In this document: piece after piece, positions 55,248 through 61,542 of the stretch
How positions within the stretch are numbered: the first letter of the stretch is position 1
How the letters are laid out: the number at the start of each line of letters is the position of its first letter
Assembly: GCF_000319385.1 (NCBI RefSeq)
Contig: NC_019566.1
Location: forward strand, 124,001-188,000
Length of the DNA: 64,000 nucleotides
Reading direction: 5' to 3'
DNA from: Candidatus Endolissoclinum faulkneri L2
GTDB lineage: Bacteria; Pseudomonadota; Alphaproteobacteria; Thalassobaculales; Thalassobaculaceae
Made by a program: the position numbers and the translations under genes
The notes under the pieces: model-generated
Seen by the model: only the letters and a program-made list of their open reading frames with translations
What the model was told of the DNA's origin: nothing
Databases searched by the model: none

Positions 55248-57055
55248 TACTTTTAGCAGTAAGGTGGATTAAGTATTTTTAATAGCATTATGCTTTTCAT
55301 AGCTTTGGATATGTAGATTAATGCTATGAATAAACTGTTTAACAAATTCTTATTATTTTTTATTTAAAATGAGATGGAAAGTTTACTAAAACTACAGTAA
55401 TACATTGAATTATATAGTTAAAACTATGAATACAAAATTTCATTTCTCCAGGTATCGTATTTTTTAACTAATTTTGACTGAAATAGGTTATATTTTTGCA
55501 AATAATTCTTGCACTGCACTAATTTATAAAATCTCATGTCTTTCTGATAATTTCACGAGAAAATGTTTTCAATTAGGCGATATGTTGACATAATATATTC
55601 TTGTGCTTTATCAACAAATTAAGGTAATCATATTATTAAATAGAGCTTGTATTGTATCATGTGATTTTGCAGAGCTTAAGATAATTGTACTAAGATTTCA
55701 GAATTAATAATTTTTTAGATTAAAATAGAAGATATACGATATAATAAGATACGATTTATAGCTATTAATTAAATAAAATGTTTTTTTTGTTTTGTTAGAG
55801 TATTTTTTTTATGTTTTCAGTTAATACAGCTTTTCACGCTATTTAAAATGATCTCTTACTTGTTAAGACAATTACGCAAAAAAATAATTGATTGTGATCT
55901 TACTTATAGCTCTTGCATCTAATAGATAGGGATCAGCCTGATTTTTTTGTTTGAAGTTTTATTGATAAGTTTGTCAACTATTTTTGTAGATAACTTTGAT
56001 ATAAGTGCCTTTTTTAATCATGTACCACAAGCAAATGATTGACAGAAATCATATCTTATAATGGATTGGATCAATTAGCAAACTTTGTTCTTAAGTGATA
56101 CGTAGCTAAGGATATATTTATTTATCTGTAGCAGAAGATTAGAAGAGAAATAATTTTTGGGACTAATTCAACAACATATATCTAATTTTATTATAGTTAA
56201 TTTTGATAAATACTCTTCATGCTAGTAGCATAGGTATTCAGTTGTGAATAGTACAATATTTATTTATGATTGAACTTTTTATTGAATCTTAAGGATCGCT
56301 TGTTCACTTCAAAATTGGAAATCTCTCTAATAGAGGATTTTGCATATCTATACTTTTAGCGTGCTATGTTATTATTAAATATAATGACTGGTTTCGTCGA
56401 ATAACTTGGTTTAAAGTAAAATTAATTTATTGATTCACTAAAGAAAGTATTAAAATTAATTATCAGTACTGATTCTAAGTGCTTTTTCTCTTATTTAAAC
56501 AGCTAAGTAAAAGAGAAGCGAATCTTTGCTAATGGGTAATAGGCTTTAGATTAATTATGATAAACTTATTACCAGTGAGTGAAGAATTAATTAATTTAAG
56601 TATATTTCTTAATATTAATTGCTTAATCATCTACAGAATATTTAGATTGCAGCTAAAATTAATTCTTCCTAGCAGAAGATTTTTGCTTCAGCTTGAAAAT
56701 TTAACTTTTTCGCAGATAGATTATTTTAAACTTTTTTTCCTAAAATAGGGTTTAAATTGTAAAATATCGTAGCTTGTTATTAAGTAACAGTTTTTGCTTT
56801 TTATTGTACAAACATCTCTGCTGTGGAGATGATTTTTTATTAAAAATACTCTATTGTTGCAAGTTAGATTAAATACGTCTTTTTGTATTATAAAATAACT
56901 CTTAAATATTTTAAATTAAATTATTCTATATCGTGCGTTGTAAAGTTCACCTGTTTAGGCTTATCACTTTTCTAAAGTGAATTTGCCTAATTCTTTCTTA
57001 GAAAAAATGTTATTTGTTTTATCGTTCGTAGAATTTTGTCGAAAAGATGATTACT
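55248..57055. other. Intergenic, no gene seen
   Basis: About 1.8 kb. A 63-codon frame at 56557-56748 is composed almost entirely of L, I, N and F residues and lacks a ribosome binding site, so it is judged spurious. No other structure stood out. Confidence 0.5.
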
Positions 57056-57100
57056 CATAATACACTTATAAATATTAAACATATTTATAAGTGTATTATG
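57056..57100 (-). terminator. Perfect 20-bp hairpin overlapping the end of the ThyX-like gene
   Basis: Arms 57056-57075 and 57081-57100 are exact complements with a TAAAC loop. The arm read first contains the last codons and TAA stop of the minus-strand ThyX-like gene. This makes it a convincing terminator fused to the coding end, although no long U-run follows. Confidence 0.65.
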
Positions 57101-58380
57101 TTTTGCATACCTCGTTTAACGTCGAGTGTATTTTTTTCTAAATCGCAATGTAGCTGGATGAATGGAAACTCTGTTTTGATTGCTTTGTGTAAATGGTGAG
57201 CAACGAAGCGAAGATTGGAGTGTACGGTTTTGCTTGAACGTAATTCTGCTACGTATACCATCTGCCGTAGATCATAAACTATTCGACAAGGAACTAGCAA
57301 GCCAAGTGGCAAATAGTTTTGGCGTTCTTCTTCGGTAATCTCTAGCTTGTCTGAAGCTTTCCGCAAATTTATTATGCGTGGAGCGACCGATGCCATGGTA
57401 GATTCTGGTAAATTATTTATATACCAAGGATGAAAGCCGTAAAACCAAGTTAGTAAAGGCATTTCACAATAACCGTTACGATGACGCTGAATATCACGAA
57501 AAGATCCAAAATCGAGTAAAAATCGGCACTCGAATGATGCGTATGACCCAACTATGCTTGGTAGTTGTTCGTATTTCGGTCTATTGGTAAAAATCTTTCG
57601 GTCTAATAAATCAATAGCAGTACGATTAGCCTCACATGTATAGTCAAAATTTGGATAATTTTCTTCTTGTTTAAGATAATAAGTTTTTAGTTTAGATATC
57701 ATTGCTCGATATGCAGATTGTTCTGGTCGATATTTCTGACTAAACGATACGGGATACTTTTTCTTTAGTTCTGTGAGAATCATTGCCGCTGTTTCACGGG
57801 TTTCAGACAAAGGATGTAGAGAAAGATTGCGTAAATGGTCAGCTGCTTGGCGCAAATTAGTTGTCCACGAAAGTTGGGATTTGACTCCAGCTGGAAGAAA
57901 TCCTCGCGAAATATCAAATGCTCGTGCTTCAAGGGTTTTTTTCCATATTTCTATTTTAACGCCATCTGGGCAGGGATAAGCGATAGTCAACTTTGCTAGG
58001 ATAGCTGAATGAACTTGGGTATAAATCTCGAGCCATCCAGATATGATTGCTTTTGACTGTGATGTACCGACAGGGTCGTTATATCCATTAGTGGAAAAAT
58101 TAATATAACGAGTAGATGTCTCTTGGCCAAAATACAATGGAGTATTTTGCACTGCTTTGCAGGTTAGAATGGAAACTTCTTCTATGAAGATTGTTGTGAA
58201 ACCACAGTCCCCTATTGATTCATGACCATAACCAACATAATATTCTTCCATAAATTTGCCAAATCCACGATCTTGGATACTGGCAAGATGTTCTATGACA
58301 CTTGATGATGATCGGCTGTATAGCGCCTGAAGCATAGAATTCGCCTCTGGTTTTAGGCCGTCTTCGATCAAGATGCGCAT
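57085..58380 (-). CDS. thyX: Double-length ThyX-like flavin-dependent thymidylate synthase
   Basis: ThyX makes dTMP from dUMP using FAD and methylene-tetrahydrofolate. Canonical proteins are about 200-300 residues; this one has 431 and looks like two ThyX folds in tandem. The first half has GYGHESIGD, then QETSTRY (residues 86-92), FLPAGVKSQLSWTTNLR and ETRE. The second half has QRHR (298-301), LPLGLLVP, DLRQMVYVAELRSS and HSNLR. The family signature RHRxxSxNExSxRY is divided: the SxRY part survives in the first half, where RHR is replaced by QNT, while RHR survives in the second half, where SxRY is absent. A CAGAGGAA ribosome binding site precedes the ATG. Activity as a thymidylate synthase is inferred, and another role is possible. 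Confidence 0.8.
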   Translation of the reverse strand: MRILIEDGLKPEANSMLQALYSRSSSSVIEHLASIQDRGFGKFMEEYYVGYGHESIGDCGFTTIFIEEVSILTCKAVQNTPLYFGQETSTRYINFSTNGYNDPVGTSQSKAIISGWLEIYTQVHSAILAKLTIAYPCPDGVKIEIWKKTLEARAFDISRGFLPAGVKSQLSWTTNLRQAADHLRNLSLHPLSETRETAAMILTELKKKYPVSFSQKYRPEQSAYRAMISKLKTYYLKQEENYPNFDYTCEANRTAIDLLDRKIFTNRPKYEQLPSIVGSYASFECRFLLDFGSFRDIQRHRNGYCEMPLLTWFYGFHPWYINNLPESTMASVAPRIINLRKASDKLEITEEERQNYLPLGLLVPCRIVYDLRQMVYVAELRSSKTVHSNLRFVAHHLHKAIKTEFPFIQLHCDLEKNTLDVKRGMQNIIHL

Positions 58381-59319
58381 TATTTATTTTCCTCTGTCCT
58401 TCCAGATTATTCTCAATTTTCTGCTTATTAACGTAATATTAAGTTCATTAATAAAGTTTTATGATATTTTATAGAATAGCTTATTTAAATTTTTTATAAA
58501 AATCGGCTTTATTATTTAAAGCAGTAAGGCCTAATCACAGCAGCTTTTTAATCTCGTGCTTGCATATTTTCTTAAATTGGAGATTTAATCACCGTATTTA
58601 CAAAAGTAATAAATAAAATCTTAGTTGTTATACTTAAGCTAATTTTAGGATTCATGTAGATAAAAATCATAAAGTTCTATTTTTTAGAAAATTATCGCTA
58701 CTTAATAAAGTAAGTTTTGTTTCAAGATAAAAAATTCTATCTCTTTAAAATATTAGTTGCCATCAATTCTCTCTCGGAGAGTTTTGGTTTTATTACAAAG
58801 TTTACATTTTATGTAAATTAATTCTTGTGTGATTTATTTGTATTAATACTACTTGCAGTTTAATTTTACAATTAACAGCTTATCTTTTTGATAAGTGATT
58901 GATTTTGTTTAAGAAGACTATATGGTTTATAATACTATTTCCTTAATGAAATATGACAATGTTATAATTAATTAATCAAAATTCATATTATATTATATTG
59001 CCCTCGAATGAGGGAAATTTATTTTTACAGGAGAACGCTACTTGTTTCCTAACTATTTTGGCTTATTCGTAAACTTAAAATTTGTGAGCATTCTTTTTGT
59101 AAGGTAATGACGATTTTTGTAATATGAATTGTTTCTTATTGATTTTCGATTGTTTGATAAACAATCCTGGGAATTTTTTATTTAGCAATACTGAGCCATC
59201 TGTTTTTTTTTAGAAAAAATTATATTTGTCCTGAGAATAAATGCATTTTTTTGTTTACTTAGAATTAAGTTGCTTAATAGCTTATTTTTATTAATCAATA
59301 GTGGAGAATATGTTTTATT
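58381..59319. other. Intergenic between divergent thyX and hisA
   Basis: No gene. A small CCCTC-GAAT-GAGGG hairpin lies at 59001-59014. A GGAG motif near 59030 has no convincing frame after it. In related genomes hisH often lies just upstream of hisA, but I see no trace of it here. Confidence 0.45.
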
Positions 59320-60054
59320 GTGATTCTTTATCCTGCAATTGACATAAATGATGGGCAGTGTGTTCGTTTGCTTCGTGGTGAAAAGAGTAGCGCTATAACA
59401 TACAGTGTTGATCCTGCTGTCCAAGCTAAGCATTTTCAGAATGCTGGTTGTAAATGGATACACGTAGTGGATTTAGAAGGCGCTTTTGCTGGTAAAGTAG
59501 TAAACGTGACAGCGGTGCGTTCAATATTATCAACCGTAGATATTCCTCTGCAGTTTGGGGGTGGTATTCGAAATCGTACCCATATTCATGATTGGATTAA
59601 CGCTGGCATTAGTCGTGTTATATTAGGTACAGTGGCTTTGTTTAATCCAAACTTGGTAGCAGCTGTTTGTCGCGATTATCCTGGCATGATTAGTGTTAGT
59701 ATCGATGTTCGTAACGGTAAACCTGCAGTTGAGGGATGGACTAAAACTTCTACAATAACTGCTAGGGATCTGGCATTAAAATTTGAGGATGTTGGAGTTG
59801 CGTCTATTATTTTTACTGATATTGATCGAGATGGTGCCATGCAGGGGCCTAACTTGGAGGAAACTAGAATATTAGCTCAAGCATTATCAATACCTGTTAT
59901 CGCTTCAGGGGGAGTGTCATCGATTGATGATTTATTACAATTAACTAAACTGAATAATGATGGGGTAGAAGGAGTTATTGTTGGCAGAGCGATATATGAC
60001 GGTCGAATTAATATGAATCATGCACTGCGTGTACTTGGCGGGGATAATACTTGA
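59320..60054 (+). CDS. hisA: ProFAR isomerase HisA
   Basis: Fourth step of histidine synthesis, an Amadori isomerisation of ProFAR to PRFAR in a (beta/alpha)8 barrel. The 244-residue protein has the catalytic Asp8 in YPAIDINDG and Asp129 in SIDVRNGK. The phosphate-binding loops are FGGGIRN and ASGGVSS, and [14 protein letters not shown] is also present. The GTG start at 59320 gives the family N-terminus; GGAGA at 59303-59307 is a somewhat distant ribosome binding site. The stop overlaps the hisF start by one base (TGATG). Confidence 0.96.
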
Positions 60055-60818
60055 TGTTAAAAGTGCGCGTTATTCCATGCCTAGACGTTAAGGGTGATCG
60101 ATTAGTTAAAGGAGTAAATTTCGTCGACTTGGTTGATACCGGCAATCCTGTGGCACAGGCTAAGTTTTATAATGACGAAGGAGCAGATGAACTATGCTTT
60201 TTAGATATTGCTGCTAGTCAGAAAGATCAGTATATAATATTTGATGTAATTAGTCGTGTTGCAGAACAGTGCTTTATGCCCCTAATGGTTGGTGGTGGGG
60301 TGCGAAACATTGAGGATATCCGCAAGCTTTTACTCATTGGAGCCGACAAAGTGGTCATTAATACTGCAGCGGTTAACAATCCAGAATTTGTTCGCCAAGC
60401 AGCCAATAAGTTTGGCAGTCAGTGCATTACAGTTGCCGTTGATGTTAAGCAAACGAGTGGAGGTAAATTTAATGTTTTTACACATGCTGGTCGCCAGGCT
60501 ACTGATTTAGATCCTGTTGTATGGGCACAACAAATGGTTGAATATGGTGCAGGTGAGATTATGTTGACATCTATTGATCACGATGGCACCAAACAAGGAT
60601 TTAATATATCGTTAACTAGGACTGTTTCTGATTCTGTACAGGTACCAGTTATTGCTTCGGGGGGAGTTGGTACACTGGATCATTTGGTGGAAGGAGTGCA
60701 TGCTGGTCATGCCAGTGCAGTCCTATCTGCTTCTATTTTTCATTCAGGTACTTATCGTATTAGCGAGGTAAAAAAAGCAATGTTTGCTGCCGGTATTGCT
60801 GTTAGACAGAGCAATTGA
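60054..60818 (+). CDS. hisF: Imidazole glycerol phosphate synthase cyclase subunit HisF
   Basis: Cyclase subunit that turns PRFAR and ammonia into imidazole glycerol phosphate and AICAR. The ammonia normally comes from the glutaminase HisH. The barrel of 254 residues has both catalytic aspartates, Asp11 in PCLDVKG and Asp130 in AVDVKQ, and the phosphate loops GGGVRN and ASGGVGT. The start is the ATG at 60054, which overlaps the hisA TGA by one base; the in-frame TTG just upstream is not needed. It is translationally coupled to hisA and followed by hisE after 7 nt. AICAR links this pathway to purine synthesis. hisH is not in the window. Confidence 0.97.
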
Positions 60819-60825
60819 GGATACT

Positions 60826-61116
60826 ATGAATAATAATCATGTTCTTGATCGACTTATTAATAAGATAGCATCGCGCCGAGAGGATAACTTAGAGACAAGT
60901 TATACTGCTAGATTACTGTCAAGTGGTCCCGTGAGATCTGCGCAGAAAGTCGGAGAAGAAGCTGTAGAAGTAGCTATTGAGGCAACGTTAGGGAATACTG
61001 ATACTTTGATTTCAGAAAGTGCTGATCTATTATATCACTTGTTGGTATTGTGGGTCTCCATGGGAGTAAGCTCGCATAAAGTTTGGGCTAAACTAGAAGC
61101 ACGCGAGAAAATTTAA
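60826..61116 (+). CDS. hisE: Phosphoribosyl-ATP pyrophosphohydrolase HisE
   Basis: Second step of histidine synthesis, releasing pyrophosphate from phosphoribosyl-ATP. It is a small all-alpha MazG-like protein of 96 residues. The conserved helices read SYTARLLSSGP, KVGEEAVEVAIEA and ESADLLYHLLVLW, with the acidic Mg2+-binding residues in place. The start is the ATG at 60826, with GAGG at 60817-60820; upstream in-frame starts would overlap hisF and lack similarity. It is a stand-alone HisE, not fused to HisI, as is usual in alphaproteobacteria. Confidence 0.95.
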   Translation: MNNNHVLDRLINKIASRREDNLETSYTARLLSSGPVRSAQKVGEEAVEVAIEATLGNTDTLISESADLLYHLLVLWVSMGVSSHKVWAKLEAREKI

Positions 61117-61179
61117 ACTAAATTCGATAAAACTACTGTTAGCTTGGAGCCTAAAAAATAATTAATTGGAAATTGCTCA

Positions 61180-61542
61180 ATGCTTTATGATGCCAATAAT
61201 ACTTTTGCTAAGATTTTGCGTGGTGATATTCCAAGTAATACTATTTACGAGGACGATTACACTCTTGCATTTAAGGATATCAATCCTTGTACTCCCTTCC
61301 ATGTCTTAATTATACCTAAGGGGGATTATGTTTCTTTATCAGATTTTTCTCAGAAAGCAAGCAATTCAGAAATAATTGGCTTTATTCGTGCTGTTGGCAA
61401 TATAATCTATAAATTTAATCTTGCGGAAAAGGGATATCGTATTGTGGCCAATAGCGGCTCTGATGCCAATCAAGAAGTATTTCATTTTCACTTACATATG
61501 CTTGCTGGCAAAAACCTTGGGAGCATTATCAAACCAATCTAA
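61180..61542 (+). CDS. HIT family nucleotide-binding protein (HinT-like)
   Basis: A 120-residue histidine-triad protein of the Hint branch, which hydrolyses adenosine phosphoramidates and acyl-adenylates. The fold markers are FAKILRGDIPSNTIYEDD at the N-terminus, HVLIIPK, and the catalytic triad HFHLH (His102, 104 and 106), followed by MLAGKNLG. It follows hisE by 63 nt, and a HIT gene at the end of hisA-F-E is a conserved alphaproteobacterial arrangement. The physiological substrate is unknown. The ribosome binding site is weak (GGAAA). Confidence 0.93.
   Translation: MLYDANNTFAKILRGDIPSNTIYEDDYTLAFKDINPCTPFHVLIIPKGDYVSLSDFSQKASNSEIIGFIRAVGNIIYKFNLAEKGYRIVANSGSDANQEVFHFHLHMLAGKNLGSIIKPI

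Follow-up and report, generated by a model that had tools for sequence, protein, structure and literature searches.

The locus described here raises the question of how a thymidylate synthase could work when its signature motif is divided between the two halves of one chain. Within the window, a stretch of 64,000 nucleotides from Candidatus Endolissoclinum faulkneri L2 (contig NC_019566.1, positions 124,001 to 188,000), a single open frame of 431 amino acids plus stop runs on the minus strand from 58380 to 57085. In a Pfam search of this frame Thy1 (PF02511) was the sole family matched (53.9 bits versus a gathering threshold of 24.8, E 2.5e-14); at a loose threshold it covers two separate stretches of the protein, and no match to ThyA (PF00303) was found in the frame. 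With 28.3 bits the NCBIfam thyX equivalog TIGR02170 stayed below its cut-off of 87.9 bits. A sequence-only reading had described a double-length protein with ThyX-like elements in each half. This was borne out by two ThyX folds and by the motifs QETSTRY (86-92), LP...NLR (162-177) and ETR (193-195) in the N half and QRHR (298-301), LP...DLR (357-372) and HSNLR (387-391) in the C half.

Structure was addressed with an AlphaFold2 model of the whole chain, calculated from an alignment of 75 relatives (pLDDT 93.6, pTM 0.91). The high pTM suggests a defined mutual arrangement of the two halves. All 14 Foldseek matches at E <= 0.001 are ThyX. Using VIA-align, residues 5-223 of the model could be superimposed on M. 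tuberculosis ThyX (2af6_C; Z 11.5, rmsd 4.2, 201 residues aligned), by which the N-terminal ThyX domain was placed at residues 1-223 (57712..58380, minus strand). The C-terminal domain (residues 242-431; 57088..57657, minus strand) was placed by the match of residues 242-417 to T. maritima ThyX (3g4c_B; Z 10.7, rmsd 2.9 Å, 168 residues aligned). With this match the objection that the second half might be unrelated to ThyX falls away, and the model indicates that it is a genuine ThyX domain. Secondary structure is repeated in the model as well, with a strand-helix unit at 61-78 and 281-297 and a strand-helix-helix unit at 166-208 and 361-404. At the sequence level the relationship is faint. The single protein found no match among PDB sequences with phmmer, and these were reached only with a profile built from 76 family members; all 76 aligned members, the tandem protein included, match Thy1 (E <= 0.001). 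Direct comparison of the N half with the C half by hhalign gave a weak match, so the two are taken as homologous because each of them matches ThyX. The C half against canonical ThyX was likewise weak (71 columns, P 0.002), and the residue equivalence upstream of RHR thus rests on ungapped extension together with the fold match.

The ThyX site of M. tuberculosis is built from three subunits: RHR95-97 and Arg199 come from subunit A, Ser71 and Arg190 from subunit B, and the Gln103 backbone, Ser105, Arg107 and Tyr108 from subunit C (PMC6514825), referred to below as roles A, B and C. In the enzyme of PBCV-1, Gln75 and Arg182 stem from monomer A and Ser88 and Gln89 from monomer B (PMC3498832), in independent agreement with the mycobacterial map. 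Arg87 of the mycobacterial enzyme (role C) was left out of the comparison, as it is not universal in canonical ThyX. Across 53 canonical rows the RHR motif is conserved to 100/98/100% and the further role A arginine to 100%; Ser, Arg and Tyr of role C are each at 100%.

In the tandem protein these residues are distributed over the two halves. Role A is conserved solely in the C half (n = 90 close relatives), with R299-H300-R301 at 100/91/100% (57478..57486, minus strand) and R381, the equivalent of T. maritima R174 and M. tuberculosis Arg199, at 100% (57238..57240, minus strand). About 9% of the family C halves (8 members) carry RQR instead of RHR, always after a conserved Q. At the N-half equivalent of R381 the family is variable (Arg 42%, Lys 34%), with Ser in the protein itself. 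Roles B and C are confined to the N half of the same 90 relatives. Within G52-H53-E54-S55 (58216..58227, minus strand) S55, corresponding to mycobacterial Ser71, is found in 100%, as is H53, the counterpart of T. maritima H53, the histidine that stacks on folate/FAD. R177, the equivalent of mycobacterial Arg190, reaches 97% (57850..57852, minus strand), and the dUMP-binding ExSxRY is kept as QETSTRY (58105..58125, minus strand) with E87 at 98%, S89 and R91 at 100% and Y92 at 99%. The C-half equivalents of S55, R177, E87, S89, R91, Y92 and H53 are lost, apart from an Arg at the mostly Pro-occupied R177 equivalent in 9% of the family, including the protein's own R372.

Each half has therefore kept what the other lacks: RHR occurs in the C half only, SxRY in the N half only, and the contiguous RHRx7S is absent from either domain. 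The observation that the second half retains RHR and lacks SxRY was confirmed in full, the expected SxRY site at 309-312 being variable (L309 in 89%, T311; 57445..57456, minus strand). For the first half, the retention of QETSTRY and the loss of RHR held as well; the replacing residues had been given as QNT, but gap-free alignment to canonical ThyX back from SxRY places the site one residue later, at N79-T80-P81 (58138..58146, minus strand). The family consensus at this site is D-N/W-P (Asp 87%, Glu 7% and Asn 6%; then Asn, Trp or Thr; then Pro 80%). From this partition it follows that role A is open to the C half alone, and roles B and C to the N half alone. Taken together, the two halves hold the complete residue set for FAD and dUMP, with all three roles present.

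The same division is widespread. Among 140 tandem proteins nearly all share its orientation. In 90 of 91 close-family proteins SxRY lies in the N-terminal and RHR in the C-terminal half, the single exception being truncated at the end of a contig. Of 49 more distant tandems from Patescibacteria, 45 show this distribution too; the others are one truncated at a contig end, variants with RNR or RGR, and one outlier that lacks SxRY. Judged by these sequences, such a recurrence is not due to chance. An automatic alignment of 175 domains reproduced the residue partition, the distant Patescibacteria N halves showing S88, R90 and Y91 at 100% and the C halves RHR at 100% and R174 at 97%. In 69% of these N halves the equivalent of T. 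maritima H53 is Asp (GDDS instead of GHxS). Full-length relatives were found in Thalassobaculum, Magnetovibrio, Asticcacaulis, Micavibrio-like and other Alphaproteobacteria, in Gammaproteobacteria, Spirochaetota and many Patescibacteria, and also in viral contigs of IMG/VR. Vibrio jumbo phages carry tandem relatives at 30-31% identity. Plasmids in PLSDB gave partial, distant matches only. A 537-residue Thy1-like protein from Patescibacteria (L204) has RHR in its C half and SxRY nowhere, and may be a further-diverged or non-catalytic form.

An assembly artefact, or a fused gene pair annotated as one, was considered; nothing was found in its favour, and it is refuted to near certainty by independent genomes: intact frames of the same length occur in six genomes of the genus and about 140 others, among them isolates, MAGs and phages. 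The source genome is a single contig of 1,481,191 bases with an estimated completeness of 99.95%. In its nearest named relative, Ca. Endolissoclinum faulkneri L5 (NZ_CP006745), the ortholog is intact and the protein 87% identical, and the frame is also intact in four free-living genomes of the genus (68-71% identical). The gene has been retained in genomes of 1.5 Mb. Between the two E. faulkneri lineages dN/dS amounts to 0.14 for the N half and 0.12 for the C half, which places both halves under purifying selection.

This last observation bears on the possibility that catalysis belongs to one half, the other having decayed to a structural or regulatory partner, with sites forming only between like halves of different chains. 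Pseudo-enzyme domains are common after duplication, and most of the listed active-site residues do lie in the N half. Against this, RHR and SxRY are never united in one half, the full RHRx7SxRY being found in 0 of 140 tandems; the residues lost in one half are near-invariant in the other, and selection acts on both alike. We consider such a division into enzyme and partner improbable. The composite-site arrangement, in which a fused dimer rebuilds its sites from both halves as had been proposed for this locus, is well supported rather than proven: the split matches the published subunit map residue by residue, in distant relatives as well.

To serve as the thymidylate synthase of the cell, the tandem protein should stand in for ThyA. 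Searches of the source genome gave no match to ThyA (PF00303), no Thy1 besides the tandem gene and no thymidine kinase of the TK family (PF00265). A canonical thyA or second thyX elsewhere, which could have made the protein dispensable, was accordingly not found. DHFR is present, so the genome is not a case of the textbook pattern of thyX without folA. The absence of DHFR as an argument for a ThyX role was rejected on this ground, and its retention neither supports nor weakens the assignment. In the bacterial family, six genomes with the tandem gene (G001-G005 and G093) have no ThyA, whereas eight sampled genomes of other genera without it, and a ninth, have ThyA and no Thy1 (6 versus 8 genomes, Fisher 2e-4, the genomes not being phylogenetically independent). 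Of 50 genomes bearing tandem loci, 47 show no PF00303 match over the cut-off; in the other three the match is full length in one, from Asticcacaulis.

Patescibacteria offer a larger sample. Thy1 was detected in 100 of 287 genomes, 73 of which have an ORF of at least 400 residues, i.e. of tandem length, compared to 21 with a clear single-domain ThyX, as counted from the listed ORFs. The tandem form would thus be the majority form of ThyX in the sampled Patescibacteria. Full-length ThyA, taken as E < 1e-40 in our own count, occurs in 2 of the 100 Thy1-positive and in 121 of the 187 Thy1-negative genomes (Fisher 3e-29, an indicative value given that the genomes are related). In this group Thy1 and full-length ThyA almost exclude each other. 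Tandem ThyX replaces ThyA in its genome, and very likely it is the functional thymidylate synthase of the symbiont.

A ThyX-derived protein with a new function had been named as the alternative; it might, for example, be another pyrimidine C5 methylase like PolB, or a non-catalytic protein. The score below the TIGR02170 cut-off would fit this idea, and PolB structures are among the fold matches (residues 242-412, Z 9.7). PolB-type UMP/dUMP methylases share the ThyX fold, but they are single-domain proteins of antibiotic biosynthesis and rank level with ThyX in the fold comparison, not above it. By contrast, in a genome that is both complete and reduced, the tandem gene was the only candidate found for a thymidylate synthase, and its relatives take the place of ThyA. 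A new function is therefore disfavoured, and we rate it as a shade less probable still than a decayed partner half.

We thus favour, with a probability of about 0.83, a tandem-fused flavin-dependent thymidylate synthase with complementary halves and composite sites as the only evident dTMP source of the cell. The N half would bind dUMP and close the site through ExSxRY and His53, and would also supply the Ser and Arg given to FAD by a third subunit; FAD and uracil would be held by the C half through RHR and its conserved Arg. A pseudo-tetramer would result from the pairing of two fused chains. Applying three twofold axes to the published site, the role triplets would read (A,B,C), (B,A,D), (C,D,A) and (D,C,B). 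Since role A falls to the C half and roles B and C to the N half, C halves would occupy positions A and D and N halves positions B and C, which two fused chains could supply. Exactly two of the four sites would then be complete, each composed of one C half and two N halves. The other two, without RHR and SxRY, would be vestigial and are not expected to hold FAD or dUMP as known from ThyX. Geometrically the roles could be divided in other ways too; the evidence lies in the residues of one role always occurring together in one half. The chemistry is expected to be that of ThyX, the methylene group passing from CH2-THF via N5 of FAD to dUMP.

Compared to canonical ThyX/FDTS (PF02511; TM0449, M. 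tuberculosis ThyX), the fold of each half, the pooled active-site set and the exclusion of ThyA are alike. The tandem protein differs by carrying two ThyX domains per chain with RHR and SxRY in different halves, in contrast to RHRx7S in one, and by its predicted number of sites, two for every two chains where canonical ThyX has four for four. Judged strictly by the canonical criteria, a contiguous RHRx7S and TIGR02170, it falls outside standard ThyX; very probably it works in the same manner.

Regarding the origin of the fusion, the main group falls into two branches of the tree, one of N halves (SH-aLRT 99) and one of C halves (98), the pattern expected from one fusion. A second type of tandem ThyX from Patescibacteria (L158, L160, L163; approximately 540-600 residues) ends in a C-terminal CPEGxRWCG/CPEGDRYCG tail. 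This type shows the same split and sits apart in the tree, with its N halves near single-domain ThyX of Patescibacteria. Its position points to a possible separate fusion with the same split; a single clade of the N halves was not rejected by the AU test (p 0.39). A broader view would regard split-site ThyX as a widespread class of thymidylate synthase that is obligately asymmetric. Tandem fusion would have produced it on more than one occasion, each time with the roles divided alike, and the two vestigial sites of each assembly would have acquired another use, for example in regulation. We hold this to be rather unlikely.

No description of a fused, duplicated, tandem or split ThyX was found in the open literature searched, and nothing relevant on ThyX or dTMP synthesis in Patescibacteria/CPR was found there either. 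Judging from the sequences, a fused ThyX with complementary halves, each lacking the catalytic residues of the other, is found repeatedly: in symbionts, in jumbo phages and in the majority of the sampled Patescibacteria that carry ThyX. The chlamydial ThyX is unusually long, with about 529 residues, and has been assayed biochemically; its length would fit a tandem. Should it be of this type, a tandem ThyX has already been shown to be active and the novelty would be confined to the split. Annotation based on RHRx7S and TIGR02170 scores split ThyX poorly or overlooks it. ThyX is essential and a target for drugs, and it has been described as a homotetramer whose sites are each built from three subunits. 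A natural fusion would allow the contribution of each subunit to be tested directly, and one role at a time to be mutated in a single chain.

The gene neighbourhood is common to E. faulkneri L5 and not kept in Thalassobaculum, and the context therefore gives no functional hint. Both flanks, 55248-57084 (ca. 1.8 kb) and 58381-59319 (ca. 0.9 kb), contain short ORFs only and gave no Rfam match; they are probably decayed genes of the reduced genome. Further along, at 59320-61542 on the plus strand, hisA-, hisF- and phosphoribosyl-ATP pyrophosphohydrolase-like genes are followed by a HIT-family gene, as named by eye from the translations, and the order of the his genes is the same in E. faulkneri L5.
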